Assembly: GCF_001577755.1 (NCBI RefSeq)
Contig: NZ_CP010776.1
Location: 806,001 to 870,000, forward strand
DNA length: 64,000 nucleotides
Source of the DNA: Rufibacter sp. DG15C
GTDB lineage: Bacteria; Bacteroidota; Bacteroidia; Cytophagales; Hymenobacteraceae
Direction: 5' to 3'
Positions 801-63,610 of the stretch are shown here, in pieces; position 1 is the stretch's first letter; every line of letters begins with the position of its first letter. The notes under the pieces are model-generated. The model searched no databases and was not told where the DNA came from. It saw only the letters and a list, made by a program, of their open reading frames with translations. A program made the position numbers and the translations under genes.

Positions 801-838
801 CGTTTTCGGGCTGCTTTCCAGGAAACACGTCAAAAACG
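801..838. repeat. 38-bp intergenic palindrome, copy 1
   Basis: Degenerate copy in the divergent gap between sucD and uvsE. Left arm CGTTTTCGGGCTGCTTTC; the right arm keeps CAAAAACG at its end. Both neighbours start away from it, so it cannot be the terminator of either. Confidence 0.75.
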
Positions 839-1894: not shown

Positions 1895-1932
1895 CGTTTT
1901 TGGCCTATTTTCTGAAAAAGAGGCCAAAAACG
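1895..1932. repeat. 38-bp intergenic palindrome, copy 2
   Basis: Lies between uvsE and the following lipoprotein gene, both read rightwards. Left arm CGTTTTTGGCCTATTTTC, right arm ending GAGGCCAAAAACG. An ATG in the gap just inside this repeat opens a false N-terminal extension (MAYFLKKRPKTK) of the next gene. Confidence 0.9.
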
Positions 1933-5829: not shown

Positions 5830-5867
5830 CATTTTTGGCCTCATTTCAGGAAAACAGGCCAAAAACA
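5830..5867. repeat. 38-bp intergenic palindrome, copy 3
   Basis: Between the Dph6-like gene (its stop is 36 bp away) and the acyltransferase start. The outermost CG pair has decayed; the inner TTTTTGGCC / GGCCAAAAA arms are intact. Confidence 0.9.
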
Positions 5868-6670: not shown

Positions 6671-6708
6671 CGATTTTGGCTTCTTTTCCAGAAAACAGGT
6701 TAAAAACG
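6671..6708. repeat. 38-bp intergenic palindrome, copy 4
   Basis: Begins 3 bp beyond the stop codon of the DUF4112 gene (minus strand). Left arm CGATTTTGGCTTCTTTTC, right arm GAAAACAGGTTAAAAACG; inner mismatches are mostly wobble-type. Confidence 0.88.
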
Positions 6709-8770: not shown

Positions 8771-8808
8771 CGTTTTTGGCTTCTTTTTCGGAAATCAGGG
8801 CAAAAACG
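8771..8808. repeat. 38-bp intergenic palindrome, copy 6
   Basis: Starts 19 bp after the SDR stop. Left CGTTTTTGGCTTCTTTTT, right GAAATCAGGGCAAAAACG; the inner arms are partly decayed. Confidence 0.88.
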
Positions 8809-12650: not shown

Positions 12651-12696
12651 AAAAGAAAAGGCCTCACTTGGAAACAGGTGAGGCCTTTTCTTTTTT
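12651..12696 (+). terminator. Rho-independent terminator
   Basis: Perfect 17-bp arms AAAAGAAAAGGCCTCAC (12651-12667) and its complement (12678-12694), ending in a T run. It lies 14 bp after the amidohydrolase stop and its T run overlaps the start of palindrome copy 8. Confidence 0.92.
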
Positions 12697-12727
12697 AGGC
12701 TGTTTTCTGGAAAATAGGTCAAAAACA
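12690..12727. repeat. 38-bp intergenic palindrome, copy 8
   Basis: Immediately follows and partly overlaps the terminator. Inner arms TTTTTAGGCTGTTTTC and GAAAATAGGTCAAAAA; the outer CG pair is lost. Having both elements side by side shows the palindrome is distinct from the terminator. Confidence 0.85.
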
Positions 12728-12859: not shown

Positions 12860-12897
12860 TGATTTTAGGCTAGTTTCAGGAAAACAGGCTAAAAACG
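12860..12897. repeat. 38-bp intergenic palindrome, copy 9
   Basis: 35 bp before the DUF1080 gene. Left arm TGATTTTAGGCTAGTTTC, right arm GAAAACAGGCTAAAAACG; GGCT/GGCT variation is balanced by changes in the other arm (AGGC versus GGCT... pairing kept apart from one position). Confidence 0.85.
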
Positions 12898-13680: not shown

Positions 13681-13718
13681 CGTTTTTGGCCTATTCCCCA
13701 GGGAATAAGCCAAAAACG
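13681..13718. repeat. 38-bp intergenic palindrome, copy 10
   Basis: Starts 11 bp after the DUF1080 stop. Arms CGTTTTTGGCCTATTCCC and GGGAATAAGCCAAAAACG pair at 17 of 18 positions; the inner CCC/GGG and A/T changes relative to consensus co-vary. Confidence 0.93.
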
Positions 13719-24969: not shown

Positions 24970-25007
24970 CGTTTTCGGGCTATTTTCTAGAAAATAGCCC
25001 GAAAACG
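24970..25007. repeat. 38-bp intergenic palindrome, copy 13 (perfect, co-varied)
   Basis: Arms CGTTTTCGGGCTATTTTC and GAAAATAGCCCGAAAACG are exact complements although they differ from the consensus at three positions per arm. All three are compensated. It lies 46 bp beyond the LamG lipoprotein stop. Confidence 0.97.
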
Positions 25008-25053
25008 GCAATCATTATCATTCATTCAATTATTCAAGGGTGAGCGTACTCAA

Positions 25054-26325
25054 TTATTTCTCTGCGTTGTACATGGCCAACACTTCGGCGTCTGTCAAGG
25101 CAGTATGGAAGATACGAACCTCGTCCAGGCTACCTCTAAAGTGGTTCGCCGTGGTTTGGTTGTAGCCGCCCCAAGGCTCAGAGGCCCAAAGCGTACCACC
25201 GCGTGACTGGTTAAAACCAAACGCGAATTTGTTTTCTACTTCTGGGTTGGCATCATACTTCAAACCTTTCATAGTTCTTTCAATAGAGGCACTAGGTAAC
25301 AGCATGAAGTTGTCTCTCTCCATCAATACACCGTTCACATACAGTGATCTGGTTTTAGCCGTACCGTTGAACACAACGGCTATGTGTGCCCATTTGTCTT
25401 TCACAAGGGCTGCCATGCCACCAGCAGCGGTCAGGTTTTTCTCCACCTCAATGGCTTCCCAGCCACCAGAAGTACCTGTCATGCCATCTCCATTAAAGAA
25501 GAAGTCTCCTGGGCTGGTAGTACCGTTGCCCCACTCATAGCGGGCTACCACTTTGGCGGTGTTGTAGTCTGCACCCAGTTCAAAGGCAAGGCCATGGAAG
25601 GCACCTAAGCCCATCACAAAGTGTGCCTTAGGATTGCCGCTACCGTCTACCTGACCGGCAGACGTGGCTTTCATCCAGAAGCTTAAGGTAAAGTTGCTGG
25701 AGTTCAACAGTTGCTCACCGTTAGGGATTTCAATGATAGAAGTGGTTCCGTTAAACACGGCGGCTTTACCCGCTTGACCTTTGCGGTCTTCGCCGTAGGT
25801 GATGGCTACCACACCACTAGCTGGTGCAGAGAAAGCGCCTACCTGGTCATTGGCGTTGCCGTCAAAAGACCAATGTGCAATCACACCCGGCAATGGCGCA
25901 GTGCCAGCGGTAGTAAACGTCTTGGTCATAGCTGCCATGGTCTGGCCGTCAGCGGCAGTCAAAGCCCCCATGCTCAAGGTGTAAGTGGTGCCGGCAACCA
26001 AAGGAGCGCTTGGTGTTAGGGTCACTTCCATGCCGCTAGTGGTTACAGTAGCTGGCACTGCATTGGTGTCTCCTTGCTTTTTAAGCGTGATGTTAGTATT
26101 GGTGGCACTAGTAGCATTAACCGGCACCGAGAACGTGGCTTTGATGGCAGCGTTGGTGGGCACGTTGGTGGCGGCCGTAGCCGTATTCAAGTCAACGGTG
26201 CCTGCCATCAGAGACTTTAACTCAAACTTGGTTGGGTTGTCATCCTCGTCATCACTACAGGCCGTGAATGAAAAAAGCGCCACTAGTACCAGCAGGCTTC
26301 TCCAATTGTTAAATAAGTGTTTCAT
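25054..26325 (-). CDS. LamG/Big-domain surface lipoprotein of the polysaccharide locus
   Basis: Lipoprotein of 423 residues; probable surface glycan-binding protein filling the SusE/SusF-type slot. Signal MKHLFNNWRSLLVLVALF ends in FTACSDDEDD, with an acidic stretch after the cysteine of the kind that marks surface export of Bacteroidota lipoproteins. Residues ~35-140 are a Big_5-like Ig domain (TNVPTNAAIKATFSVPVN, LVAGTTYTLSMGALTAADG). Residues ~150-420 are a LamG/concanavalin-like domain (VIAHWSFDGNANDQVG, AAVFNGTTSIIEIPNG, NFTLSFWMKAT, KWAHIAVVFNGTAKTRSLYVNG, FRGSLDEVRIFHTALTDAEV). No catalytic residues are evident. Confidence 0.88.
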   Translation of the reverse strand: MKHLFNNWRSLLVLVALFSFTACSDDEDDNPTKFELKSLMAGTVDLNTATAATNVPTNAAIKATFSVPVNATSATNTNITLKKQGDTNAVPATVTTSGMEVTLTPSAPLVAGTTYTLSMGALTAADGQTMAAMTKTFTTAGTAPLPGVIAHWSFDGNANDQVGAFSAPASGVVAITYGEDRKGQAGKAAVFNGTTSIIEIPNGEQLLNSSNFTLSFWMKATSAGQVDGSGNPKAHFVMGLGAFHGLAFELGADYNTAKVVARYEWGNGTTSPGDFFFNGDGMTGTSGGWEAIEVEKNLTAAGGMAALVKDKWAHIAVVFNGTAKTRSLYVNGVLMERDNFMLLPSASIERTMKGLKYDANPEVENKFAFGFNQSRGGTLWASEPWGGYNQTTANHFRGSLDEVRIFHTALTDAEVLAMYNAEK

Positions 26326-26436
26326 AAATAGTTTGTTTAGTGAATGTTATGTATGGTATTCGTAATAATAATGGCTTAATGATCAGCAGCACTTGGAGTA
26401 GCTTTAAAAGCTCTTCGGTGATGAACTATCATATTC

Positions 26437-28062
26437 TTAATGCAGGAACACGACCAGTTCTTTGTTTACAGAAGCATTCTTTAGGCGCAATCTATACGTG
26501 CCCGGGGGCAGCGCCTTCCCGAAGTTGACGGTGTGCAGACCTGTGGCTTTGGTTTCATTGGTCCAGATGGTTTCCACCACGGTGCCGTCCCCTTTCTCCA
26601 CTTGCAGCGTCAAGCCGGGTGCATTGTTGACCGCTACTTCTATCTGGTAGGCGTCTGCGTCTGGGTGCTTGAGCAAGTCCAGCAGATTGGACTGCACATC
26701 CAGCACCGCCAACGCAAAACCTGTCTCATACACTGGCTTCTGAATACCGGCCTTGGCTAAGCCTGCCTGAATCTCGGGCAAATTGGTGAACAGGGACCAA
26801 AGTAATCCGCTGCGGTAGTTCTCAATCATGGTGACAATGGGCCCTTGGTCAATAGCCAAATACTGCCGACCTACCCAATTTCTTTCCTTGTTGTAAGCGT
26901 CATACGGGCCATACTCTCCTATCATCACGGCCTTCAGGCTGGTGTACAGATGGCGCAGCACCTGCATAGAGAAGTAAGGCGTGTAAGGGAAAGAAGAAAG
27001 CGCCGCCGTGGGCGAAATGGTCCCGTTGTCATTGGTAGGGCTGTGCGCGGTATACCCGTTATAGGTGTCAGAGGCCGTCAAGCCCCACAGGCTGGCAAAG
27101 TAACCGTACTTCTTGGGGGCAGTATTGATGCTGTAAGACCGGTTGATCAAGGTGTGCTTGACGTTCTGCTGCCAATAGTTGGTGTATTGGTCTTGTAGTT
27201 GCCGCGGGTCTAAACTGATGAATGAGTAATGCGCGAAGAACAATGGCCCTCCATACTCCGGTCCCAGGTTAAGTTTATAGCCCTCATAGGTGCTGCCGTT
27301 CCAGAAACCACCGTTGCCAATCCAAGAGTTTTGGTACACGGTAGAAGGAATGGCGTGTGTGGGTGAAGACAAGGCCAACACGTAGGCAATCAGGCCCTCG
27401 TTCCAACCTTGGATGGGCATGTTCATCTCCCAGCCGTAGTTAGGGCTCCAGTGCCAGTACAGTTTGTTATCCCCTCTAGAGGCATACCAGTCCCACTCCA
27501 CGGTCTCCCAGAGTTGCGTGATTTTGGTGCGGAGCTCTACTTCTTTAGAATCTGAGCTATTGTAATACGCTCTGGCCGTGAGCAGTCCGTTCACCAGGTA
27601 AGCGGTCTCAATCACGTCTCCACCATTGTCTTTGGGGCTGAAGGCAATCACGTCACCGGTGCTGCCGCTCAGCCAATGGGGCCAAACACCGTGAAACCGA
27701 TCTGCCGCAGCTAGGAAATTGCATATCTTGAGTAATCTGTCCACGGCCTGGGCGCGGGTAATGAATCCTCTGTGCGTACCCACCACAATGGCCTGAATGC
27801 CAAAACCTGAGCCTCCGCTGGTCACCAAGTCACCAGACGTGGTACGTTCCCGCGCCAGGCCAGAGGTAGGGTGGGCAAAATCCCAGAAGTAGTTGAAGGT
27901 GCTTTTCTGCACCTCATCTAGGAGCTTCTTATCCTCTACCGTGGAAGATGGCGCCGCTGGCTGTGGTTCTGGGGTAGATTCTTCCTTTTCTTTACATGAA
28001 GAAGCCACACCCAACCACAGCAGGGTCATCAAAAAGAAAAATATAGGTGTTGGTCTCTTCAT
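26437..28062 (-). CDS. GH144-like glucanase lipoprotein B
   Basis: Second GH144-like enzyme, 541 residues, anchored as a lipoprotein (Cys23 in ASSC, followed by KEKEES). The barrel repeats the motifs of its paralogue at 23430: FNYFWDFAHPTSGLARERT, GGSGFGIQAIVVGTHRGFI, FHGVWPHWLSGSTGDV, FSPKDNGGDVIETAYL, WHWSPNYGWEMNMPIQGWNE, GGPLFFAHYSF, SPTAALSSFPYTPYF and IDQGPIVTMIENYR. An extra beta-domain of ~75 residues follows (VAVNNAPGLTLQVEKGDGTV ... GTYRLRLKNASVNKEL), perhaps carbohydrate-binding. The acidic residues after the lipid-anchored cysteine suggest the outer surface, so it may make the first cuts while the soluble paralogue works in the periplasm; that division of labour is inference. Confidence 0.92.
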   Translation of the reverse strand: MKRPTPIFFFLMTLLWLGVASSCKEKEESTPEPQPAAPSSTVEDKKLLDEVQKSTFNYFWDFAHPTSGLARERTTSGDLVTSGGSGFGIQAIVVGTHRGFITRAQAVDRLLKICNFLAAADRFHGVWPHWLSGSTGDVIAFSPKDNGGDVIETAYLVNGLLTARAYYNSSDSKEVELRTKITQLWETVEWDWYASRGDNKLYWHWSPNYGWEMNMPIQGWNEGLIAYVLALSSPTHAIPSTVYQNSWIGNGGFWNGSTYEGYKLNLGPEYGGPLFFAHYSFISLDPRQLQDQYTNYWQQNVKHTLINRSYSINTAPKKYGYFASLWGLTASDTYNGYTAHSPTNDNGTISPTAALSSFPYTPYFSMQVLRHLYTSLKAVMIGEYGPYDAYNKERNWVGRQYLAIDQGPIVTMIENYRSGLLWSLFTNLPEIQAGLAKAGIQKPVYETGFALAVLDVQSNLLDLLKHPDADAYQIEVAVNNAPGLTLQVEKGDGTVVETIWTNETKATGLHTVNFGKALPPGTYRLRLKNASVNKELVVFLH

Positions 28063-28152
28063 TCGTCTACGCGCTATTTTATTTTAAAGGCATCCTTTCT
28101 CTGAGCATTGTTACCGTCTCAGAGGGAAAGACCTTTTGCTTATACGCTTCTA

Positions 28153-28190
28153 CGTTTTTGGCCTGTTTCCTGGAAAATAAGCCAAAAACA
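28153..28190. repeat. 38-bp intergenic palindrome, copy 14
   Basis: 22 bp beyond the SusD stop, between SusD and GH144-like B. Left CGTTTTTGGCCTGTTTCC, right GGAAAATAAGCCAAAAACA. Confidence 0.92.
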
Positions 28191-28212
28191 GAGGAGCGAC
28201 TTTGTTTATCTG

Positions 28213-29703
28213 TTAGTAGCCTGGGTTCTGAGTAAGCACGCCGGCAGACTTGTCAATCTCGCCCTGCGGAATAGGCATCAATTCATGCTTACTGGCCACA
28301 AATCCTGTTTTGCCGGCCGCGTGCAGCACATCGGCGGCAATTCCCCAGCGCACCAGGTCAAAGAAGCGCTCATGCTCCATCGCAAATTCCACCCGGCGCT
28401 CGTGCCGGATAATGTCTCTTAACGCAGCTTGGTTGCGTTCCGTAATCCTAGGCAGAACAGCGGCGTTGCTTCCGCGGGCGCGGGCACGCACCATCTCCAG
28501 ATACATAAGGGCTTCATCTGTGTTTGCGACACCACCCAGTTCATTTGCGGCCTCGGCGGCCATCAAGACCACGTCTGCGTAGCGCAGAATTCTGATGTTC
28601 ACCCAAAGGCCATGCTTGTTGTTGGCTTCGGCCCTTACCTTAGGATCTGTGTACACTTTTTGGTTGTAGCGCTCATTGGGCACCGATGCCGGAATCACCT
28701 CGCCGTAGGGCGTGGTCTCACCTCTGAACAAGATGGTAGCTTCTTTTCTGGGGTCACCAGGCTCATAGGCATCTACCAATTGCTGTGATGGCGTGTTGAA
28801 GCCCCAGCCAAAGTCAAAGTCTCCAGATCCTCTCACGCCTTGCACCTCGGCGTATTGGGTGCCAAACTGATGGACAGTGTTGTGGATGGCCTGTATCTCA
28901 AATAGGGACTCTTTGCTGTTCTCCTTGGCCTCGGTAAAGATTTGATTGTACGGCGTGCTCAGGTCAAACATGCCAGAAGCCATCACGGCTTTGGCTTCGG
29001 CCAGCGCGCTGCCCCACTTCTTCTGGTATAGGTAGACTTTGGCCAGCATGCCTTGGGCAGCATATTTGGTAGGGCGGCCTATAAACTCAGAACCCCAGCT
29101 TGGAGGCAGGTTCACAGAGGCAAACTGAAGATCCTGCTCAATGAAACTGTACACCTGCGCCTGTGAAGACTGCGGAATGTTAAAGTTGTCACCTTGGGCC
29201 AGCACCTTTTCAATGATGGGCACGCGGCCGTAGGTTCTTACTAAATTAAAGTACAAGTAGCCTCTTACAAACCGCGCCTCTGCTTGTGAGGTACTATAAT
29301 CTGCCGGACTGATGTCATTTTTGCGCTCCTCGGCCTGCTGCAACACCAGATTACACTTACTGATCGCAGAAAAATGTGAGGTGTAAAAATCTGAGGTAAG
29401 ACCGTTGGTTGGCAGGATATTAAAGTTGTCCAGCGCCAGCTGGTCTGGGGCATCTGCCGGCGTACTTCCCTTGTCTGCGTCATCTGACGTGATGCTGGTA
29501 ATCCCTACAAAGGCAAACGCATGCACGCCCCACGCCCGAAGGTCTGAGTACATGCCATACACATACTGCGTCAAGCCGCCCGCCGGATAGTTTTCTGTAG
29601 TATAACGCCCTTGCGGCTGTCTGTCCAGGAAGTCATCACAGGAGGTGCTCACAGCCAAAACCCATAATAGACAAGCAGTGGTATATTTATATAGACGGTT
29701 CAT
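28213..29703 (-). CDS. SusD/RagB-family nutrient-binding lipoprotein
   Basis: Outer-membrane surface lipoprotein of 496 residues that lids the SusC pore and captures oligosaccharide. The signal ends in STSC (Cys22) then DDFLDRQPQG, the standard SusD start. Recognisable family parts are YSDLRAWGVH, SAISKCNLVLQQAEE, EARFVRGYLYFNLVRTYG, KYAAQGMLAKVYLYQKKW, LRYADVVLMAAEAANELGG, MVRARAR, IRHERRVEFAMEHERFFDLVRWG and the C-terminal LMPIPQGEIDKS ... LTQNPGY. It starts 5 bp after the SusC stop, so the two are co-translated from one message. A palindrome follows it. Confidence 0.97.
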   Translation of the reverse strand: MNRLYKYTTACLLWVLAVSTSCDDFLDRQPQGRYTTENYPAGGLTQYVYGMYSDLRAWGVHAFAFVGITSITSDDADKGSTPADAPDQLALDNFNILPTNGLTSDFYTSHFSAISKCNLVLQQAEERKNDISPADYSTSQAEARFVRGYLYFNLVRTYGRVPIIEKVLAQGDNFNIPQSSQAQVYSFIEQDLQFASVNLPPSWGSEFIGRPTKYAAQGMLAKVYLYQKKWGSALAEAKAVMASGMFDLSTPYNQIFTEAKENSKESLFEIQAIHNTVHQFGTQYAEVQGVRGSGDFDFGWGFNTPSQQLVDAYEPGDPRKEATILFRGETTPYGEVIPASVPNERYNQKVYTDPKVRAEANNKHGLWVNIRILRYADVVLMAAEAANELGGVANTDEALMYLEMVRARARGSNAAVLPRITERNQAALRDIIRHERRVEFAMEHERFFDLVRWGIAADVLHAAGKTGFVASKHELMPIPQGEIDKSAGVLTQNPGY

Positions 29704-29708
29704 ATAGC

Positions 29709-32708
29709 TTAGAAATTAATGTTTACACCACCTGTGAAAATAACCGGAACCGGGTAGGTACCGTTGTCCACGCCAGACTCCAACACGCCGCCGCCCACTT
29801 CAGGAGAATAGCCCGTGGCTTTGGTAAAGGTTTTCAGGTTCTGGGCATTTACATATACTTTGGCACCCTTTAGTTTGAGCATGTTTAGTACCCCGCCCGG
29901 CAAGTTGTAGCCCAGTGTGAGGTTCCTGATTCTGAAGTAATCCCCTTTCTCTAGGTAGTAGTCTGACGGCCTGAAGTTCTGGGAACGGGTATTGTCCAAG
30001 ATTGGCTCTTTGTTAGAAGTGCCCGGACCGGTCCAGCGGTCTAAACGACGGGCCTCATAGTTAAGAATAGAGAAGTTGGCAGCAATTCTGTTGTTGTAAA
30101 TGTAGTTGCCGGCTACTCCTTGCACATCCAAGCCTAATTCAAAACCTTTGTAATTTAGGTTGAGCGAAGCCCCATAGATAAAGTCTGGTGTTGGTGACCC
30201 TAGGAAGGTTCTGTCCTTGTTGTCAATGATATTGTCTCCGGTAAGGTCCTTGAACTTGATGTCTCCCGGAGAAACTGGCACGGCGCTGGCCGGTGAATTG
30301 GCAATCTCATCTTGTGATTGGTAAATTCCCTCCTGCACATAGCCGTAAAAAGCCCCAATAGGATAACCCAAAGAAGTTCTGGAGTTGCCATTTATTAATT
30401 CATAGCCAATATTGTCTCCAAATGAAGTCACCTCATTGTGAACCGTGGTGGCGTTGGCACTTAAACTGTAACCAAAGTCTCCTTTCTGATCACGCCAGGT
30501 AGCGGATAATTCAAAGCCTTTGTTCAACACGCTAGCCGCGTTGGTGAAAGTAGGCGGAATACCTGCGCCGGCAGGCGGAGCCACTATCACCAAAATCTTC
30601 TCTGTCTTGCGGTTATAATAGTCTGCATCTATGGTTAACCGATTGTTGAGCGTAATTACCTCCACACCGGCATCGGCGCCTTCGGTCACTTCCCATTGAA
30701 TGAATGGATTAGGAACATACTCTGGCACCGCCGCCGGATACACATTCTCTCCAAACACGGCAGATACCCCAGAGTTAAGGACCGGATAAATGGCATATCT
30801 GTTGCTGATGTTTTGATTGCCTTGTCTACCCCAAGAGGCTTTCAACTTAAGAAAGTCTACATATTTCTGGTTCTGCATAAAGGACTCATCAGAGATTACC
30901 CAACCCGCGCCTACCGCCGGAAAGTTGTCAAACTGGTTATTTGGTCCAAAGCGCGAGGTTCCATCCCGGCGTAATGACACGTTTAACAGGTACTTGTTGG
31001 CAAAGGCGTAATTAACCCTGAAGAAGGCAGAGGCTAAGGCTTCTTCGCCGGCGTTGCCAAAGTTGCGCTCGGCTTCCAGGTCATTGCTGATGTCCAGGAA
31101 CCAGAAATCTGGGTTATTGGGGATGGGCGTAGTTAAGCCCTGCGTAGAACCGCCCAGGTTGTCGTCTGCTCTGTACTGGGCCGTGGCGCCCAACAACACC
31201 GTGAAGTCATGCTTTTCATTAAAGGTCTTGGAATAGGTAAGGGTATGGTCCTGCTGCCAGCTGGTAAAGGTGGCCTTGTTTTGTCTTACCCCGCTAATGT
31301 CATTGAACTGCGCGCGCTGGTCACCAAAGCCTACTGAGAAAATGGGTGAGTAGCCTCGCTCCTGGTTAAAGCCTAGGTCTGTGTAAAACGTAGAGCGCCA
31401 GGTAAAGGCTTTCAGAAACTTCACTTCGCCGAAGGCTGAACCTACAAACCGGTACCCATTGCTGACAGTGGTACCTTTGTAAATCTCCATGAACGCTACC
31501 GGGTTGCCCACCTGCGCTCTCTGGAAAGAAGGACCTGAGTTGTATGCCCCCGAAGAATGGTACGGCGAATAGACAGGTGCTGCCCACAGAGAATTCAAGA
31601 TGCCTCCCGTGGCCGGCGTTCTGTCCCACCGGAACAAGCTGATATCTGCCCCTACTTTCAGGTTTTCATTTACGGTGAACTCATCGCGTAAGTGAGCGGT
31701 GTAGCGTTTGTAAGAATCATACTTCACCAACCCGTCTTGGTTAAAATAGTTGAGGCTAAAGCTGGCCGCGTTACGTTCTGTGCCGCTGGTGATGCTGAGG
31801 CTATTGTTGTTAATGAAGGCGTTCTCGCGCAGAATCTGGTCCTGCCAGTCTGTGTCTGCGGTATAGCCGTTAAAATCAAAGTCAAAGGGTGCCTGTCCTA
31901 AGTTGGCCAACTGTTCATTGTAGAGCTGCTTAAATTGGGCGGCATTGGCCACGTCAATCTTTTTGGCCACCCGTTGAATACCGGCATAGGAGTTAAAGTT
32001 GATGTTGGTCTCCCCTTTCTTGGCCCGCTTGGTAGTAACAATGATAACCCCGTTGGCACCCTGTAACCCGAAGATGGCCAACGAAGAGGCATCCTTCAGT
32101 ATCTCCATGGATGCAATGTCATTAGGGTTCACGAAGTCAATGTTATTGGCAAAAATACCGTCCACTACATACAGCGGGGTAGTTCCTGCATTCAAGGAAC
32201 CAATCCCTCTAATCCGGATGGTAGGTGCTGCCCCAGGAGAGCCGTTGTTAGTGATCAAGACTCCAGCCGCCTTCCCTTGAATGGAATTCAATGGGTTAGG
32301 AGCAGGAGTGTCCTCAAACTCTTCGGCTTTTAAAGACACAATGGAGCCCGTAACGTCTCTTTTTTCTTGCGTGCCATAGCCTATCACCACTACTTGCTGT
32401 AGTTCATTGGCAGCGGCCTGCATGGTCACATTAATATTTGACCTACCGTTCACTGGAACCTCTTGCGTGGCAAACCCAAGATAGCTGATGACCAGTGTAG
32501 CATTGGAAGGAACGTTGTTAATGGTATACTCCCCATTCACATCTGTATTGGAGCCGTTAGTGCTTCCCTTCACCAGCACGCTGGCACCAATGAGGGCTTC
32601 ATTGGCATCTCCACCCGTCACTTTCCCCTTTACCGTCAGGGTTTCCTGGGCATACAAAGAGGTTAGACAAAAGAAGCTTAAGAATATAAAAAGTAGAGGT
32701 CTCTTCAT
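29709..32708 (-). CDS. SusC/RagA-family TonB-dependent transporter
   Basis: Outer-membrane TonB-dependent importer of oligosaccharides, 999 residues. Order of parts: signal peptide to about LYAQ (residue 21); CarboxypepD_reg domain (VKGKVTGGDANEALIGASVLV ... NGEYTINNVPSN ... LVISYLGFATQEV, ~24-110); TonB-box region LQQVVVIGYGTQEKRDVTGS; plug domain (SIQGKAAGVLITNNGSPG, PTIRIRGIGSLNAGTTPLYVVDG); and a 22-strand barrel ending in an aromatic-terminated strand VIFTGGVNINF. No extra N-terminal STN domain is present, so regulation by an anti-sigma factor is not expected. It heads the structural genes of the locus; the 600-bp gap upstream should hold its promoter. Confidence 0.97.
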   Translation of the reverse strand: MKRPLLFIFLSFFCLTSLYAQETLTVKGKVTGGDANEALIGASVLVKGSTNGSNTDVNGEYTINNVPSNATLVISYLGFATQEVPVNGRSNINVTMQAAANELQQVVVIGYGTQEKRDVTGSIVSLKAEEFEDTPAPNPLNSIQGKAAGVLITNNGSPGAAPTIRIRGIGSLNAGTTPLYVVDGIFANNIDFVNPNDIASMEILKDASSLAIFGLQGANGVIIVTTKRAKKGETNINFNSYAGIQRVAKKIDVANAAQFKQLYNEQLANLGQAPFDFDFNGYTADTDWQDQILRENAFINNNSLSITSGTERNAASFSLNYFNQDGLVKYDSYKRYTAHLRDEFTVNENLKVGADISLFRWDRTPATGGILNSLWAAPVYSPYHSSGAYNSGPSFQRAQVGNPVAFMEIYKGTTVSNGYRFVGSAFGEVKFLKAFTWRSTFYTDLGFNQERGYSPIFSVGFGDQRAQFNDISGVRQNKATFTSWQQDHTLTYSKTFNEKHDFTVLLGATAQYRADDNLGGSTQGLTTPIPNNPDFWFLDISNDLEAERNFGNAGEEALASAFFRVNYAFANKYLLNVSLRRDGTSRFGPNNQFDNFPAVGAGWVISDESFMQNQKYVDFLKLKASWGRQGNQNISNRYAIYPVLNSGVSAVFGENVYPAAVPEYVPNPFIQWEVTEGADAGVEVITLNNRLTIDADYYNRKTEKILVIVAPPAGAGIPPTFTNAASVLNKGFELSATWRDQKGDFGYSLSANATTVHNEVTSFGDNIGYELINGNSRTSLGYPIGAFYGYVQEGIYQSQDEIANSPASAVPVSPGDIKFKDLTGDNIIDNKDRTFLGSPTPDFIYGASLNLNYKGFELGLDVQGVAGNYIYNNRIAANFSILNYEARRLDRWTGPGTSNKEPILDNTRSQNFRPSDYYLEKGDYFRIRNLTLGYNLPGGVLNMLKLKGAKVYVNAQNLKTFTKATGYSPEVGGGVLESGVDNGTYPVPVIFTGGVNINF

Positions 32709-33305
32709 AAAGTATAGTTATGTGAGCTGGACTGAGAATCACCTATGATTGATAGGCTCAAATCTTGCTGCTTAATACGTATGAAACCAAAAAGCTACCT
32801 ATACAACGCTACATCAAATGAAATTTTCTTAAAAAAACGCCCTTAAAACGCATATCAACAAAGGATACACGACTTTTATGAGGTGATTTTTGCGAATTTC
32901 ATATTGTTGGGAGAGAGTGATTTACGCGTCCTTGTGAGGTAATGTTGAGGTGAATAATTGAAAAAACAGCTGATGACCCTGTCAGGATGTAGACCAAGAT
33001 GTATAATCTAACTGAGAACCTTCCATGGATCCTGTAATACAAAAGGCGACACAACTCAAAAAGGAGGAATGAAGAAAGAATTAAGCAAGCCCGTCCTATT
33101 CTTAAGATGTGATGTACCAGAAACTAGAAGAAAATGTCCTATGCGTTTTTGGCTTGTTTTCTAGGAAACAGGCTAAAAACGGAAGCGCCTCCTCTTACTC
33201 TGAAAGAGATTTTTTTAAGTTAGGAAGACATGAAGAGAGTTAGTGAATACGGCAGAAGGGTTCTATGCCATAGCCGACACGAGGGAGAAAAGAAGCAGGA
33301 ACGTA
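32709..33305. other. 597-bp leader region of the SusC operon
   Basis: Between the regulator stop and SusC start, no convincing gene. A minus-strand TTTG (32815-32818), 17 bp, TAGCTTTT (32790-32797) is an imperfect promoter candidate for susC with a leader of ~75 nt. Palindrome copy 15 lies in the far half. The remaining ~250 bp next to the promoter candidate are the natural place for the operator of the adjacent regulator, but I could not pick out a repeated site. Confidence 0.5.
33144..33181. repeat. 38-bp intergenic palindrome, copy 15
   Basis: 124 bp beyond the regulator stop. Arms CGTTTTTGGCTTGTTTTC and GGAAACAGGCTAAAAACG differ from full complementarity at three positions, and each is a G-T/G-U wobble on this strand. 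Confidence 0.92.
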
Positions 33306-36203
33306 CTATACTTCCATCAGGAACTCCACCAGATTCTTCTCATGGTCTAGGTTGAGCTTCTTCCGGAGGCGGTAGCGGCTAATCTCTACGCTCCGGACGG
33401 TGATGTTTAGCAGCGTGGCAATCTCTTTGCTGTTCATGTTCAGGCGCAGGTAGGCACACAGCTTCAGGTCTTTGGGGGTGAGCTCTGGGTGGACGGCTTT
33501 CAACTTTTTGAAATAGTTCTCATGGGCCTCGTTGAAACTGCTCTCAAACAAATTCCAGTCATAGTCTGTGTCCATGCCCTCTTCTATCACCTTCTGCAGC
33601 TTCTTCAACTGCTCAGGCGCCAGCTTCTTGCCAGAGGCGTCCTTTAATTGTAGGATTTCCTCTCTGATGCCGTTGAGCAACTCGTTCTTTGACACAATGC
33701 TCAAGGCCGAGTTGGCCAGCTCTCGGCTTTTGGTGGCCAATTCAGACTCCAGCTGCTCGTTGCGCAGCCGTACCAGCTTTTGTTCGTTGAGCAGAGCCTC
33801 TCGGCGGAGCGCCTCTTCTTTCTCCTGCTCTAAGCGCATTTCTATGCGAGCCTTGTCTTTCCTGAGTTTTATTTGATATAAGTACCGGAACAGATACACC
33901 AAAGCACTGCCCAGCAATACGTAGCCCAAAAGCGCCCAATAGGTGGCAAACCACGGCGGCCCCACGGTAAACTTGAAGGCAGTGACTGGTGATACGGCAC
34001 CGTCTTCTACCCTGGCCCTCACCAGGAACCGGTACTCTCCCTGCGCCAGATTAATAAACTCCTTCTGGGTAGTTGAAGACCAATCTGACCAGCGCTGGGA
34101 ATAGCCCTCCAGGTAGTACTGGAACTGGGGCTTCATCTGACTGAAATAGGGCAGCGCAAAGGAGATACTCAGGCTGTTGCGTTTGTAGGGGATGGTAAGC
34201 GGAAAGGTAGCTGCCTCGGTGAGCAGGGCCTTGTCTTCTACGCTGTGCTGCACTTTTCTGATGAGCACCTGCGGCATGGCCTTCCTTCGGGCGAAGCGCA
34301 GGTCTGCGTTGTACACCACAAAGCCCTCGTCAATGCTAATGAGGTAAATGGAGTTGCTGATTCTGCTGATGTTCTCATAATACTCCACCATGTGCCCACT
34401 GAGCATGGTAAACTGGTTGGCGCTTACATTCACCGTCCCGGCCTTTGGCATATCTACCAGCGCCACCTGGCCGTGGTTAATGAACCAGTACTGGGTCCCC
34501 GCTGCTTTTATGATGCGGTTAGACGTGGCAAAAGGCCCCAACTTCTTATTGAGTTCTGTGTATTTGGAAAAGGAGTCGCTGATGGCATCATAAATATAAA
34601 AGCCTGCGTCTGAGGTGAAGACAATGCGTCCGTCCAGCCTGAACGTATTGATGCGGTAGTCGGCGGGCAGGCCTTGTTTCTGGTTGTAGTATTGCAGAGA
34701 TTCTACCTTTTTCAGGTCTGAGCTCAGGGACAGCTTATACAGTCCCTTATAGGCATGACTCACCCAGATGTGGCCGTTGTTGTCCTGCTCTACGTACCTT
34801 GAAGGCTCCCCAAATCCTTCTATTTTATGGGACAGGACCCAATTGCCCTGGGCGTCTTTCCGGTAGAGGACCAAGCCGGTGTAGGTGCCCTGGATGAGCG
34901 TCTCTTCCTCAGAGGCTAGTTTTTTGATTGCCCAGCCGCCCTTGTAATCTGAGAGTTTGCGCAGCTGGTTCCCCACTACCTGGAACGTGCCTTCATTGTG
35001 GCCGCAGAGCAGCTGCCCGCCCAACAAGGATAGTTCCCACACCTGCCCCTGTGAGCCTTCTATGATTTTAAAGTCCAGGGATTGATAGGACTGGTTTTTC
35101 TGCGCCGGCCACTCACTGTAAAAGAGTCCTTGGTTGGTGCCCAAGTAGATGTTGCCGCCATGTATCAAACTGGAATACACAGTGCCAAACTTACCGGTCT
35201 TGTCAAAGTAGAAGTAAAATGGTGAATCCACTTCTACCCTGTCCACGCCATTGTCCAGGCCCGCCCACAGGTTCTGCTCCTGGTCCGCGAACAGGCTCAG
35301 CACGGTGTTGTTCTGCAACCCGCTGGCCTTGTTGATTTTGTGGAGGACCTTGCCCTGTTTATCCAGGATGATCACCCCGTTGAGGATGGTACCAAAAGCC
35401 AGGGAATTGTCCTTTAAAAGAACCCCATTGTTGAGCTGGTTGGTTTTGAGGAAGTCATTGGCGTCATTGGCCCAAGGCCTGATTCCCGCCTCGTCGTACA
35501 GAAACAAGCCGTTTTTGGCAGTGCCTATCAGGAAAGAGTTTCCCTGCAAGGGCAGCACCGACAACACGTGGGCATCACCCAAAAAAGCACTCCCCGGAAT
35601 AAAGGCCAGTTGGTTATTCTTGAGTTCATAGAGGCCTTTGCCCAAGACCTCCACAAAGTAGCGGTTCTTGGCCTTTAGGAGAAAGAGTAGACTTTGCTCG
35701 CCTTTGACTACCTGTATTTTGCCCTTCTCATAAATATAGATACCAGAGAAGGACTGGAACAGCACGCGGTCCTTCTCCACGTGTATTTTCCAGATTTCGT
35801 CTTTGAGGCCGTGTTCTTTGGGAATTAGGTTAATTAAAGAGCGGTAGACGAAGCGGCCTTTGTCATTGTAATGCCAGTACCCAAACTCCCCGAAACCACC
35901 GGCATAAACTTTGTCCTCGCTTGCATTTGCCGCCACAGCCCGCACAATCACCTTATTGGGCATTCTGTAGAGCTGCCAGTGGTTGCCGTCAAAGGCCAGC
36001 AGCCCCTCTGAGTTCCCGAAGTACTTTACCCGGTTGCGCCCCTCAGTGATGGACCAGTTCTGGTTGCCCGACTGGTAGAGCAGCTTGGAGTAGTTCTGAA
36101 CGAAAGGAAAGCTAAAATTCTGGGTAGACTCTGCCTGCGCGCTTGTCAAGGAGACAGCCCAAAATAGCATTGCCCATAAGAGATAATTTACCTTGCCTTG
36201 CAT
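33306..36203 (-). CDS. Membrane-spanning propeller/Y_Y_Y sensor with LuxR-type HTH
   Basis: Predicted one-piece transcriptional regulator of the polysaccharide locus, 965 residues. The start at 36203 gives a signal peptide (MQGKVNYLLWAMLFWAVSL to AQAES); a longer reading to 36311 adds non-secretory residues and is rejected. Periplasmic residues ~30-680 form Reg_prop-like propeller blades (VYAGGFGEFGYWHYND, LWAGLDNGVDRVEVDS, IWVSHAYKGLYKLSL), followed by a Y_Y_Y domain (QFQYYLEGYSQRWSDWSS ... GEYRFLVRARVEDG), one membrane helix at ~751-776, a charged coiled coil, and a C-terminal LuxR-type HTH from ~908 (LTPKDLKLCAYLRLNMNSKE, SVEISRYRLRKKL). There is no kinase or receiver domain, so it differs from the hybrid two-component sensors usual in such loci. 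Confidence 0.9.
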   Translation of the reverse strand: MQGKVNYLLWAMLFWAVSLTSAQAESTQNFSFPFVQNYSKLLYQSGNQNWSITEGRNRVKYFGNSEGLLAFDGNHWQLYRMPNKVIVRAVAANASEDKVYAGGFGEFGYWHYNDKGRFVYRSLINLIPKEHGLKDEIWKIHVEKDRVLFQSFSGIYIYEKGKIQVVKGEQSLLFLLKAKNRYFVEVLGKGLYELKNNQLAFIPGSAFLGDAHVLSVLPLQGNSFLIGTAKNGLFLYDEAGIRPWANDANDFLKTNQLNNGVLLKDNSLAFGTILNGVIILDKQGKVLHKINKASGLQNNTVLSLFADQEQNLWAGLDNGVDRVEVDSPFYFYFDKTGKFGTVYSSLIHGGNIYLGTNQGLFYSEWPAQKNQSYQSLDFKIIEGSQGQVWELSLLGGQLLCGHNEGTFQVVGNQLRKLSDYKGGWAIKKLASEEETLIQGTYTGLVLYRKDAQGNWVLSHKIEGFGEPSRYVEQDNNGHIWVSHAYKGLYKLSLSSDLKKVESLQYYNQKQGLPADYRINTFRLDGRIVFTSDAGFYIYDAISDSFSKYTELNKKLGPFATSNRIIKAAGTQYWFINHGQVALVDMPKAGTVNVSANQFTMLSGHMVEYYENISRISNSIYLISIDEGFVVYNADLRFARRKAMPQVLIRKVQHSVEDKALLTEAATFPLTIPYKRNSLSISFALPYFSQMKPQFQYYLEGYSQRWSDWSSTTQKEFINLAQGEYRFLVRARVEDGAVSPVTAFKFTVGPPWFATYWALLGYVLLGSALVYLFRYLYQIKLRKDKARIEMRLEQEKEEALRREALLNEQKLVRLRNEQLESELATKSRELANSALSIVSKNELLNGIREEILQLKDASGKKLAPEQLKKLQKVIEEGMDTDYDWNLFESSFNEAHENYFKKLKAVHPELTPKDLKLCAYLRLNMNSKEIATLLNITVRSVEISRYRLRKKLNLDHEKNLVEFLMEV

Positions 36204-36340
36204 TCTTAGATTAAAGTCTCCCTTAAGGTAATTGGATGCTTTGATCAGCCTAACTATGAGCCAAGCTGCTTTTGTTGCGCAAAAACAGTTTAAAGATACT
36301 GATAAAAACAAAAGAATTGCTCAGCAACAGGAAAGGCATA

Positions 36341-36384
36341 TAACACAAAAGGCCCGTCATTTTCATGACGGGCCTTTTGTGTTA
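36341..36384 (-). terminator. tmRNA terminator
   Basis: A long hairpin, AACACAAAAGGCCCGTCAT against its complement around a 4-nt centre, beginning directly beyond the tmRNA 3' end. The CTTTTGTGTTA tail supplies the T-rich end on the minus strand. Confidence 0.85.
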
Positions 36385-36385
36385 T

Positions 36386-36758
36386 TGGTGGAGATGCAGG
36401 GAGTCGAACCCTGGTCCAGACAAGGAAACTTGAGCGCTTTCTACATGTTTAGTCTTGGATTGGTTTTCGTGTGAGTTCAGGCCCAAGCCTGGCCTATGAA
36501 ATCACCTTAGGTGCTTTAGTTTCATGCACTCCCCACACCTTGGAGTACACTAGATCGGCATTACGATGCCCTGTGACCAACCCCCACCGAACCGAGGAGC
36601 TGCAGGACAATGGCAAAATGCTTAGTACCTAGACTAGGCAGCCATGGCGTAGTTAGACTCGCCAGATAATAGTCGGTCAATTCTGATTTACGGGAAAACA
36701 GCCAACTCCCGACATGCTTACACCCAGCTTGCTCAAGCTGTCAATTCCGGTCATCCCC
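36386..36758 (-). ncRNA. ssrA: Transfer-messenger RNA
   Basis: One-piece tmRNA of about 373 nt that rescues stalled ribosomes. The tRNA-like ends pair: 5' GGGGATG (from 36758) with 3' CATCTCC, then ACCA with CCA encoded at 36386-36388. The T-arm reads GGGTTCGACTCCC. The reading frame for the proteolysis tag is at 36637-36663, GESNYAMAA, followed by TAG (36634-36636). The last residues AMAA replace the more common ALAA. Candidate pseudoknot-forming GC-rich segments follow the tag. The partner protein SmpB is not in the window. Confidence 0.96.
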
Positions 36759-36805
36759 AATAAGTAAAAGAACGTGGTATGCTTTCTTTTACGCCCGAAG
36801 GCCTG

Positions 36806-36813
36806 CAAAAGTA
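36806..36813 (-). promoter_or_regulatory. tmRNA -7 promoter element
   Basis: On the minus strand TACTTTTG, an exact TAnnTTTG, about 48 bp upstream of the mature tmRNA 5' end, leaving a ~40-nt leader to be trimmed by RNase P. A TTTG lies 13 bp further upstream (36827-36830), closer than the usual 19 bp. Confidence 0.5.
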
Positions 36814-36851
36814 ACCAAATAATAGACAAATACTAGCCCTTTCTGGTTCCG

Positions 36852-36889
36852 CGTTTTCGGCTTGTTTTGGTGAAAACAGCCCAAAAACG
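36852..36889. repeat. 38-bp intergenic palindrome, copy 16
   Basis: Begins 3 bp beyond the YjjG-like stop. GGTGAAAAC-centre subtype: left CGTTTTCGGCTTGTTTTG, right GAAAACAGCCCAAAAACG. Confidence 0.92.
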
Positions 36890-36892
36890 GCT

Positions 36893-37597
36893 TTATAAAA
36901 ACGTTTTCAGCTCACTCAGGCAGGCCACCTCATAGGTGGGCTTTAATGGAATGCGCTTACGCTCAGGGTTAAAGAACACCTGGTCCAAGCCCGCGTTCAT
37001 GGCGCCCAGGATATCGGCCTCCAGGTTGTCGCCAATCATGAGGCTCTCACTGGCCTTTACGCCGGCGCGCTCCAGGGCGTGCTGGTAGATTCGGCGGTCT
37101 GGCTTGGTGCAGTTCACGCACTCAGACGTGACCACCTCAGAGAAATACTGCGTCAGGTTAGACGATTGTAGCTTAATGGCCTGCACGTCTTTAAAACCGT
37201 TGGTGATAATGTGCAGCGTGTATTTCTGCTTCAAGTAGCCCAGCACCTCATGCGTAAACGGAAACACCGCCGACTTGGTAGGACAGATGTCTGTGTACGC
37301 CTCGCTCAGCCCTACGGGCACGTCTTCTTCGGCCACGCCCAACCCGGTAAGACATTTTACAAAGCGTTTCTCCCGTAGCTCCTGCTGGTCAATCTTGCCC
37401 TTGTGGAACAGGTCCCAAAGCCTGAGGTTGATGTAGCTGTACTTCTTATAAAAGTCTGTGATGGTGAAGTCGCCTAGGCGGTGCAGTTCAAACTCATGAA
37501 ACAAGTGCACCAGCGTCTCTTCTGAGTTTTTCTCAAAGTCCCAAAGGGTATGGTCCAGGTCAAAGAAGAGGTGGCTGTAGGTTTTTACTTTTTTCAT
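36893..37597 (-). CDS. YjjG-type HAD nucleotidase
   Basis: Haloacid dehalogenase-superfamily phosphatase of 234 residues, closest to YjjG noncanonical pyrimidine nucleotidases, which dephosphorylate dUMP, dTMP and damaged pyrimidine nucleotides. Motif I is FFDLDHTLWDF with Asp13 and Asp15, motif II IITNG, motif III the Lys in CTKPDRRIY, motif IV GDNLEADILGAMNAG. The helical cap between motifs I and II (KKYSYINLRLWDLFHKGKI) fits the YjjG branch. The ATG at 37597 is preferred since residues from an upstream ATG (37639) are unlike the family. It may be co-transcribed after the ArsR gene, 122 bp upstream. Confidence 0.9.
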   Translation of the reverse strand: MKKVKTYSHLFFDLDHTLWDFEKNSEETLVHLFHEFELHRLGDFTITDFYKKYSYINLRLWDLFHKGKIDQQELREKRFVKCLTGLGVAEEDVPVGLSEAYTDICPTKSAVFPFTHEVLGYLKQKYTLHIITNGFKDVQAIKLQSSNLTQYFSEVVTSECVNCTKPDRRIYQHALERAGVKASESLMIGDNLEADILGAMNAGLDQVFFNPERKRIPLKPTYEVACLSELKTFL

Positions 37598-37719
37598 GGG
37601 AGTACGCGTTGGGCCTTCAAGAACGGCGGCCGGTGCCACAAAGTTCTTCGTTCTTGGGTAAAACCAACGGATTGGGACAATGTTTATTTACCGTGCCGCC
37701 CATCGGGCAGACGCAATGA

Positions 37720-38106
37720 CTACAAGCCCGTAAAATGACGCTGCTGCAGGCGGTTGATGGCCAGCTCACGGTTGGAGTACAGGGTCTGGTACACTTCCTG
37801 GTCATGCAAGAGCAGCTGGTCCTTCTCCAGATAGCCGAACATCTGCTGCAAGAGGTCCAGCATTTCGTCTTTGATGGCGTAGAAGGCCCACTGGTCCTGT
37901 TTCCGAAAGGAGACCAGACCGGCGTTTTTGAGGTAGATGAGGTGGCGGGAGGTCTTGGTCTGGGTGAAGTCCAGCACCATCTCCATGTCCGCGATGCAGA
38001 GCTCTTTGTTGCGCAGCAGCAGGTGCAGAATGCGGATGCGCGAGGCATCGCTCATGGCCTTGAATACTTGTTCCCCGAAATTGACGTTGAAATGTTTGAG
38101 CCTCAT
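37720..38106 (-). CDS. ArsR-family winged-helix repressor
   Basis: Small transcriptional repressor of 128 residues. The winged helix is clear: FKAMSDASRIRILHLLLRNK, IADMEMVLDFTQTKTSRHLIYLK (recognition helix TQTKTSRHL) and the wing AGLVSFRKQDQWAFYAIKD. The ELCIADM version of the metal-binding ELCVCDL motif lacks the two cysteines of ArsR/SmtB arsenite sensors, so it probably does not sense arsenite; a C-terminal helix (LLLHDQEVYQTLYSNRELAINRL) may bind another ligand. A perfect inverted repeat covers its own -7 box, suggesting self-repression. It is divergent from the gene at 38191, which may share the control. Confidence 0.9.
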   Translation of the reverse strand: MRLKHFNVNFGEQVFKAMSDASRIRILHLLLRNKELCIADMEMVLDFTQTKTSRHLIYLKNAGLVSFRKQDQWAFYAIKDEMLDLLQQMFGYLEKDQLLLHDQEVYQTLYSNRELAINRLQQRHFTGL

Positions 38107-38118
38107 GTTCTACTAGCT

Positions 38119-38136
38119 GCGTAAACAAATTTACGC
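38119..38136 (-). promoter_or_regulatory. Candidate ArsR operator over the -7 element
   Basis: GCGTAAACAAATTTACGC: 7-bp perfect arms with a 4-nt spacer. On the minus strand the middle reads TAAATTTG (38126-38133), an exact TAnnTTTG -7 element, 13-20 bp upstream of the arsR-like ATG. Overlap of operator and promoter is the standard layout for repression by this family. Confidence 0.6.
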
Positions 38137-38190
38137 CCCCTGCGGCACAAAGTACCATAAAAAGGCTATACTTGTAAACGATCTTATTCA

Positions 38191-38883
38191 ATGCAGACTT
38201 TCTCTTCCGTTTTTACCCAATCCATTGGCCGCAGGTGGCGCTTGCTTTTCACGTTTAGTGCACTTTTGTTCTTCTCCTGGGGCTTCTCTCTTAGCACAAC
38301 ACATGCCCAAGGCGGCAAAAAGGTCATCCAGCTAACCGGCGTAGTAGCCGCCGGCGACAGCCTTTTAGGAATACCAGGCGCCAGCGTGTACGTGCCCAAG
38401 GCCGGCAGAGGCACCACTACCAACGAGTATGGCTTCTTCTCGCTTCCAGTGCTGGCCGGCGACAGCGTAGTGATTAGCTCACTTGGGTTTGCCAAGCAGT
38501 CCATCATCATTCCGGCCAATTTTGAGAAGCAGAGTTATTCTGTGATCATTGAGATGCTGGAAGATCCTACCGTGCTGGCCGAGATCAAGGTGTTCCCGTA
38601 TGCCACCTTTAGGGAGTTCACTCAGGCGGTCATGGCCATTAAACTACCGTCACAGGACGTAGACCAACAGACGGCTATGAGCTCCCAGATTCTGGCCCAG
38701 ATGTACAAGAACACGCCTATGGATGGCAATGCCAACCACCAGAACTACATGAACCTGCAAAACCAGCAGATGCTACGCAGAGGCGGTTACAACCCAGGGG
38801 CCACCAATCCATTGCTCAACCCGGTTGCCTGGTACCAAGTGATCCAAGCCATCAAACGTGGCGATTTCAAGAAGAAGGAGTAG
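38191..38883 (+). CDS. Carboxypeptidase-regulatory-domain protein, secreted
   Basis: Predicted periplasmic or outer-membrane protein of 230 residues, function unknown. A long N-terminal region with hydrophobic segment LLFTFSALLFFSWGF leads to a cleavage-like THAQ (residue ~40). Then comes a CarboxypepD_reg-like beta-sandwich of the type seen at the front of SusC proteins (IQLTGVVAAGDSLLGIPGASVYV, GRGTTTNEYGFFSLPVLAGDSVVISSLGFA) and a polar helical tail rich in Gln, Asn and Met (MYKNTPMDGNANHQNYMNL). No TonB plug or barrel follows, so it is a stand-alone domain. Divergent from the ArsR-type repressor. A strong hairpin terminator follows. Confidence 0.85.
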   Translation: MQTFSSVFTQSIGRRWRLLFTFSALLFFSWGFSLSTTHAQGGKKVIQLTGVVAAGDSLLGIPGASVYVPKAGRGTTTNEYGFFSLPVLAGDSVVISSLGFAKQSIIIPANFEKQSYSVIIEMLEDPTVLAEIKVFPYATFREFTQAVMAIKLPSQDVDQQTAMSSQILAQMYKNTPMDGNANHQNYMNLQNQQMLRRGGYNPGATNPLLNPVAWYQVIQAIKRGDFKKKE

Positions 38884-38900
38884 TTGCAAATCAATAAATA

Positions 38901-38943
38901 TAGCAAGAAGGCCCAACCAGACGATGGTTGGGCCTTCTTGCTA
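38901..38943 (+). terminator. Hairpin terminator
   Basis: TAGCAAGAAGGCCCAACCA (38901-38919) pairs perfectly with 38925-38943. Its right arm ends in CTTCTTGCTA rather than a pure T run. It lies 18 bp after the gene ending at 38883. Confidence 0.8.
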
Positions 38944-38954
38944 TAAGACGAATT

Positions 38955-38992
38955 CGTTTTTAGCCTAATTTCTGGAAATTAGGCTAAAAACG
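38955..38992. repeat. 38-bp intergenic palindrome, copy 17 (perfect, co-varied)
   Basis: Arms CGTTTTTAGCCTAATTTC and GAAATTAGGCTAAAAACG are fully complementary, with three compensated differences from the consensus. In the gap between convergent genes, next to a separate terminator. Confidence 0.97.
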
Positions 38993-39470: not shown

Positions 39471-39508
39471 CGTTTTTGGTCTATTTCTTGGAAAACTGGC
39501 CAAAAACA
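39471..39508. repeat. 38-bp intergenic palindrome, copy 18
   Basis: Begins 4 bp beyond the M1 peptidase stop. Left CGTTTTTGGTCTATTTCT, right GAAAACTGGCCAAAAACA: moderately decayed inner arms. Confidence 0.88.
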
Positions 39509-42607: not shown

Positions 42608-42645
42608 CGTTTTTGACCTCTTTTCTATAAAATAGCCGAAAAGTC
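42608..42645. repeat. 38-bp palindrome, copy 20, overlapping a gene end
   Basis: CGTTTTTGACCTCTTTTCTA then TAAAATAGCCGAAAAGTC. The right arm lies inside the last codons of the HupE-like gene and the repeat supplies that gene's stop codon. The only copy found overlapping coding sequence. Confidence 0.75.
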
Positions 42646-43290: not shown

Positions 43291-43328
43291 CGTTTTTGGC
43301 TTGTTTTCTGGGAATTGGGCGGAAAGCA
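43291..43328. repeat. 38-bp palindrome, copy 21, right arm decayed
   Basis: Left arm CGTTTTTGGCTTGTTTTC is intact; the right arm (GGAATTGGGCGGAAAGC) has lost most complementarity. Upstream of the HupE-like gene. Confidence 0.65.
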
Positions 43329-43997: not shown

Positions 43998-44035
43998 CGT
44001 TTTTAGCTTGATTTTCAGAAAACAGGGCAAAAACG
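43998..44035. repeat. 38-bp intergenic palindrome, copy 22
   Basis: Left CGTTTTTAGCTTGATTTT, right GAAAACAGGGCAAAAACG. 78 bp beyond the ClpB stop. Confidence 0.88.
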
Positions 44036-46800: not shown

Positions 46801-46838
46801 CGATTTTAGCCTGTTTTCCGGAAATTATGACAGAAACA
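46801..46838. repeat. 38-bp intergenic palindrome, copy 23
   Basis: Left CGATTTTAGCCTGTTTTC, right GAAATTATGACAGAAACA, strongly decayed on the right. Between ClpB start and the stop of the 46878 gene. Confidence 0.7.
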
Positions 46839-49339: not shown

Positions 49340-49377
49340 CGCTTTTGGCCTCTTTTCCAGAAAACAGGTCCAAAATG
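49340..49377. repeat. 38-bp intergenic palindrome, copy 24
   Basis: Left CGCTTTTGGCCTCTTTTC, right GAAAACAGGTCCAAAATG. 27 bp beyond the endonuclease V stop. Confidence 0.85.
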
Positions 49378-50125: not shown

Positions 50126-50163
50126 CGCTTTTGGCTTGTTTTCCGGAAATCAGGCTGAAAACG
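50126..50163. repeat. 38-bp intergenic palindrome, copy 25
   Basis: Left CGCTTTTGGCTTGTTTTC, right GAAATCAGGCTGAAAACG; the GGCT/AGGCT difference and CTTTTGG/TGAAAACG pairing use wobble. 43 bp upstream of the endonuclease V start. Confidence 0.87.
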
Positions 50164-53885: not shown

Positions 53886-53923
53886 CGTTTTTGGCTTGTT
53901 TTGACGAAAACAGCCCAAAAACG
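53886..53923. repeat. 38-bp intergenic palindrome, copy 26
   Basis: Divergent gap between kinase and idh genes. Left CGTTTTTGGCTTGTTTTG, right GAAAACAGCCCAAAAACG: related to the subtype at 19185 and 36852. Confidence 0.93.
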
Positions 53924-60493: not shown

Positions 60494-60531
60494 CGTTTTT
60501 GGCCTGTTTTCTGTAAAACAGGCCAAAAACG
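60494..60531. repeat. 38-bp intergenic palindrome, copy 27 (closest to consensus)
   Basis: Left arm CGTTTTTGGCCTGTTTTC is the consensus exactly; right arm TAAAACAGGCCAAAAACG differs in one base. It lies between convergent genes, where it could act as terminator for both. Confidence 0.97.
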
Positions 60532-63563: not shown

Positions 63564-63610
63564 TAAACAAAGAAGCCGTTTCAATCTAGTTGAAACGGCT
63601 TCTTTGTTTA
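63564..63610. terminator. Bidirectional terminator
   Basis: TAAACAAAGAAGCCGTTTCA (63564-63583) pairs perfectly with 63591-63610 around a 7-nt loop. It lies between the convergent DUF4394 and TPR genes. Confidence 0.92.

Follow-up and report, generated by a model that had tools for sequence, protein, structure and literature searches.

The intergenic palindromes of Rufibacter are probably landing sites for a putative symmetric protein, and a minority of them near gene ends appear to double as terminator hairpins. In the following, the window is the whole stretch of 64,000 nucleotides of Rufibacter sp. DG15C (Bacteroidota; genome G000, 4.14 Mb) that was analysed. The copies are genuine as a family, far beyond chance. 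A symmetric weight matrix found 344 of them in 864 kb of G000, with a clean score gap and 0 matches in the reversed control, which extrapolates to about 1,650 copies in the whole genome, and about 200 copies were found in each of three sampled congeners (copies were collected from 0.5-0.86 Mb of DNA per genome, and gene coordinates come from a simple ORF caller written in-house). The consensus, CGTTTTTGGCCTGTTTTC-NN-GAAAACAGGCCAAAAACG, spans 38 letters. Its skeleton, GTTTT-8N-TT-6N-AA-8N-AAAAC, was matched 64-1,449 times per genome in all 16 of 16 Rufibacter genomes and just 0-2 times in each of 43 other genomes of relatives, and a wrong-spacing control with one base more per arm gave 0 matches in G000. 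The same palindromes were not found in other genera beyond chance. An Rfam search of the window matched tmRNA solely, and a search of open-access papers turned up no account of the family in Rufibacter or Hymenobacteraceae. The SusC-like protein P0001 of the window has its best match in R. roseus (76%).

The placement of the copies is orderly. About half of the intergenic gaps in G000 hold one copy. Among tandem gaps of 250-1000 bp some 75% are occupied, and among convergent gaps of at least 80 bp some 80%. The number per gap saturates at about one, most gaps that are long enough to divide transcription units being occupied, and coding sequence is almost free of copies. Positions peak shortly 3' of stop codons and in convergent gaps, and divergent gaps also carry copies (Table 1). 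Of 815 half-site pairs, 806 have a spacing of exactly 21. Lone half-sites occur at about the control level with no excess beyond chance, and there is essentially no asymmetry of orientation relative to transcription, an asymmetric site model being clearly supported in genome G012 alone. Between G000 and G013, at about 83% DNA identity, the presence of a palindrome was concordant in 218 of 223 orthologous gaps (both with a site, 118; one only, 5; neither, 100), and orthologous sites stood at the same offset in 93 of 96 cases. Divergence of these sites was 0-5% at T4-6, T15-16 and their partner positions and about 25-45% at positions 8, 10, 11, 13, 14, 18 and 19. Over ten species compared the same gaps were occupied, by sites in differing symmetric species-specific variants, or dialects.

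Table 1. Palindromic sites and an adjoining inverted repeat in the window
Positions	Feature	Pairs	Remarks
801..838	palindromic site	12/18	
1895..1932	palindromic site	16/18	tandem gap
5830..5867	palindromic site	14/18	tandem gap
6671..6708	palindromic site	13/18	3 nt past stop codon
7885..7922	palindromic site	15/18	divergent gap
8771..8808	palindromic site	13/18	19 nt past stop codon
9060..9097	palindromic site	16/18	shares gap with 8771
12690..12727	palindromic site	12/18	
12860..12897	palindromic site	13/18	one compensated pair (8/31), five unpaired
13681..13718	palindromic site	17/18	compensated at 13/26, 16/23, 17/22; one C-A mismatch; 10 nt past stop codon
19185..19222	palindromic site	15/18	7 nt past stop codon
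21642..21679	palindromic site	17/18	8 nt past stop codon
24970..25007	perfect palindrome	18/18	three symmetric changes per arm relative to consensus
28153..28190	palindromic site	14/18	22 nt past stop codon
33144..33181	palindromic site		departs only by three G-T pairs, on + strand
36852..36889	palindromic site	14/18	between tmRNA gene and 3' end of ORF 36893-37639
38899..38945	non-family inverted repeat		21-bp arms; strong, terminator-like; adjoins 38955
38955..38992	perfect palindrome	18/18	three symmetric changes per arm; convergent gap
39471..39508	palindromic site		second in convergent gap of 38955; 4 nt past stop; two sites there in most other species
42608..42645	degenerate palindromic site	10/18	
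43291..43328	degenerate palindromic site	9/18	
43998..44035	palindromic site	13/18	
46801..46838	degenerate palindromic site	10/18	gap occupied in 10/10 species compared
49340..49377	palindromic site	13/18	
50126..50163	palindromic site	13/18	gap occupied in 10/10 species, own dialect in each
53886..53923	palindromic site	15/18	divergent gap
60494..60531	near-perfect palindrome	17/18	20-bp arms with flanks; convergent gap, 4 nt past stop codon
62446..62483	palindromic site	13/18	divergent gap

Such static positions bear on a mobile origin, in which REP/REPIN-like palindromes would have been moved by a RAYT (Y1) transposase. Like the REP, BIME and REPIN elements of enterobacteria and Pseudomonas, the Rufibacter palindromes are short, extragenic, often at gene 3' ends, present in hundreds to thousands of copies and found in species-specific variants, but they form a single rigid dyad of 38 bp in which T/A tracts are phased, and they do not vary in presence and absence, their positions being retained between species with only 5 of the 223 orthologous gaps differing in this species-level comparison. 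Moreover, G000 has no Y1_Tnp match and no RAYT gene, and no consistent arrangement of sites around RAYT genes was seen in other species. We rejected the REP/RAYT origin, which is very improbable, on the absence of the transposase from G000 and the fixity of the positions. One copy (G006:C1:3033014-3033051) lies near a weak Y1_Tnp match (3033190-3033384) and is probably an ordinary intergenic copy.

A reading as DNA-uptake sequences of naturally competent Rufibacter, comparable to the DUS of Neisseriaceae or the USS of Pasteurellaceae and lying in inverted pairs of which some also serve as terminators, turns on placement too. An abundant short motif with some 10^3 copies, species dialects and inverted pairs within terminators does resemble the DUS of Neisseriaceae (PMC3630211). 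DUS, however, are also common within genes, with inverted pairs at terminators (PMC3630211), whereas the Rufibacter unit is always a full dyad, almost never in genes and about one per gap, and its single motif is not found alone beyond chance, which makes uptake an improbable account.

The initial annotation had argued from covarying arms that the palindrome is preserved as a structure. This did not hold over the family. In the 344 aligned copies mean pairing was 13.64 of 18 against 13.57±0.05 for randomly re-paired arms, and double complementary changes stood at the level of independence for nearly all pairs (17 observed against 13.5 expected at pair 8/31, 15 against 16.2 at 10/29 and 19 against 22.7 at 13/26). 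The exception was pair 7/32, with 17 against 4.2, which covaries in every species sample and weakly also outside the terminator class described below. Among the 27 copies of the window covariation was within chance, the covariation score being matched or beaten by 82 of 500 shuffles and the percentage paired by 152 of 500. The permutation tests take no account of phylogeny, and the result of independence is conservative in this respect because common descent of the copies would raise covariation and not mask it. Pairing in a shifted register gave no excess at offsets -2 to +2, and mean folding energy relative to re-paired arms was mixed: the effect was greatest in G006, and G012 showed none. 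The strand comparison of G-U with A-C mismatches, proposed in the annotation for telling RNA from DNA selection, gave no RNA signal: counts of G-T and A-C on the transcribed strand were 191 and 248 in G000, hence no G-T excess, 108 and 108 in G013, and 33 and 33 in terminator-oriented copies, where the test is low in power. The covariation of base pairs over a family that marks a structured RNA was found in the terminator-like subset only.

Since pairing equals that of re-paired arms and G-T mismatches are not in excess, the family fits a symmetric protein-binding site and not a hairpin. The annotation had also named a symmetrical site, and for most copies this is the best supported of its options: the skeleton provides invariant symmetric contact bases, the half-site spacing is rigid and the half-sites are independent. 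Two departures from this symmetry were seen, namely some dependence at pair 7/32 and an anti-correlation of the arms in G012. At pairs 10, 11, 13 and 14 the arms of free copies are complementary less often than expected, an effect seen mostly in G012. Free-standing copies of G012 (e.g. L154-L156, L196-L197, L219-L238) favour two half-site types, GGGCTCA with GGCTTC, and thereby the arms become anti-correlated at pairs 10, 11 and 14, while its perfect-core copies nearly all carry GGGGCTCA or CGGGCTCA in both arms.

The view towards which the annotation leaned, that every copy is an RNA hairpin (a terminator or a stabiliser of an mRNA 3' end) under selection for pairing, would account for the peak just past stops and in convergent gaps, for the covariation of the terminator-like subset and for the paired changes of copy 24970 relative to R. 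roseus. It is distinctly unlikely nonetheless, given chance-level pairing, the missing G-T bias, the rigid spacing, the invariant T/A skeleton and the copies in divergent gaps. For the majority of the family, arm independence and the lack of wobble bias refute it.

A minority of copies behaves differently, and for these selection on a hairpin is supported. The distribution of mismatches is bimodal in four species, in which perfect cores (positions 7-14) numbered 134 against 43 expected, with too few copies at one to three mismatches in the core and too many at five or six. Perfect cores cluster 22-30 nt 3' of stops, because such palindromes cap a lengthened stem that is accompanied by a T-tract, e.g. 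GCCACTCC-site-GGAGTGGCTTTTTT. Stems extended by at least 4 pairs were found in 154 of 994 copies against about 23 expected, 113 of the 154 with a T-tract, and in these extended-stem copies nearly every variable pair covaries. The excess of perfect cores was 63 against 18.6 expected in the extended class, 24 against 8.8 with two to three extra pairs and 33 against 11.6 with a T-tract only, this last being a loose criterion that 49% of the copies with at most one extra pair satisfy. Copies with neither feature had 14 perfect cores against 11.3 expected (217 of 1000 shuffles). The numbers of core mismatches in orthologues of G000 and G013 are correlated (r = 0.40), and the class tends to belong to the locus. 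Separate terminators were rarer where a perfect copy was present (5-7% against 18-21%).

The extended-stem subset has the GC stem-loop, the U-tract and the distance to the stop codon of Rho-independent terminators, whereas most copies have neither an extended stem nor pairing beyond chance, and in the palindrome proper the 5' arm is rich in T and the 3' arm in A. We infer that a minority of copies form the predicted tips of Rho-independent terminator hairpins, the arms covarying there only. Against the combined explanation by binding site and terminator stand the equal G-T and A-C counts of terminator-oriented copies, for which RNA selection predicts a bias, the covariation of pair 7/32 in all species samples, weakly even outside the class, and the shortage of complementary arms in free copies. 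Strong inverted repeats outside the family, whose 5' arms are rich in A and 3' arms rich in T as is typical of bidirectional terminators, occur in the window at 38899-38945, 36340-36385, 63564-63610 and 12651-12694.

Perfect copies might instead arise by template switching between the arms during replication (quasipalindrome correction), a mechanism already known (PMC8794818), with no selection involved. The bimodal mismatch counts, with their excess at zero and deficit at one to three in the core, and the lack of G-T bias agree with it. The perfect copies depend, however, on gene context (51% at 26-30 nt past stops, 0-2% in divergent gaps of G000 and G013), which counts against this view because a purely mutational process would be blind to gene ends, and perfect cores are not in excess where terminator-like features are missing. 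As the whole explanation it is unlikely; template switching may contribute to perfect copies (PMC8794818), and arm-to-arm correction may be a mutational source within the terminator-like subset.

The individual copies on which the annotation relied can be placed accordingly. The perfection of copies 24970 and 38955, with three compensated changes per arm, was confirmed over 18 pairs. The - strand gene 25054-26325 has its stop 46 nt before copy 24970, and on that strand GATTTTCC follows the copy. Comparison with the R. roseus orthologue of the copy shows paired changes at 1/38, 6/33, 7/32 and 13/26. The stem of copy 24970 is extended by one pair only; by its stop distance, trailing GATTTTCC and four paired changes it fits the terminator subset despite this, and it is likely the predicted terminator hairpin of that gene. 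Copy 38955 has neither an extended stem nor a T-tract, so its perfection is not clearly explained by the terminator class, and chance yields some perfect cores. For copy 33144 the three wobble pairs described hold for the + strand; both neighbouring genes are on the - strand, so a transcript would carry three A-C mismatches and not wobbles. In the same gap R. roseus (L003:9348-9385) has the palindrome TCGTTTAGGTCTGTTTTATAGAAAACAGACCTAAACGA, where the window copy is imperfect. Perfect and imperfect states can thus differ between orthologues. Compensated changes, also reported for two further copies, were borne out in three pairs of copy 13681, one C-A mismatch aside; copy 12860 gave poor support.

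On our preferred reading, the genus-wide dyad sites of about 38-40 bp, usually one per gap between transcription units, would be read by a putative symmetric (dimeric or multimeric) sequence-specific protein, which would bind two half-sites at rigid spacing and recognise T/A tracts about one helical turn apart. Purifying selection would hold each site in place, and the preference of the putative protein at flexible positions would drift between species and give rise to the dialects. The minority just past stop codons would have been built into Rho-independent terminators as the hairpin tip, where RNA pairing would act as an extra constraint and make the arms covary. The sequences themselves show the family, its restriction to the genus, the rigid spacing, the skeleton, the retention at orthologous gaps, the dialects, the independence of the arms and the terminator-like subset; the protein, its binding, a role at gene boundaries and terminator activity are all putative.

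There is also a lesson of method: base pairing does not necessarily follow from symmetric "compensated" changes among related palindromes, because two half-sites that tolerate the same substitutions produce them by chance. Tentatively, Rufibacter could possess a chromosome-wide protein-DNA system, new to Bacteroidota, in which a fast-changing putative symmetric protein and about 1,000-2,000 fixed dyad sites, roughly one per transcription-unit boundary, co-drift in specificity and sequence into dialects, and its role could be architectural, insulating or in DNA uptake. If the palindrome is a protein-binding site, one protein would recognise more than 1,000 gene-end targets in each genome, and throughout the genus its specificity would have drifted together with those sites, which would offer a natural system for the co-evolution of a DNA-binding protein with a thousand sites.
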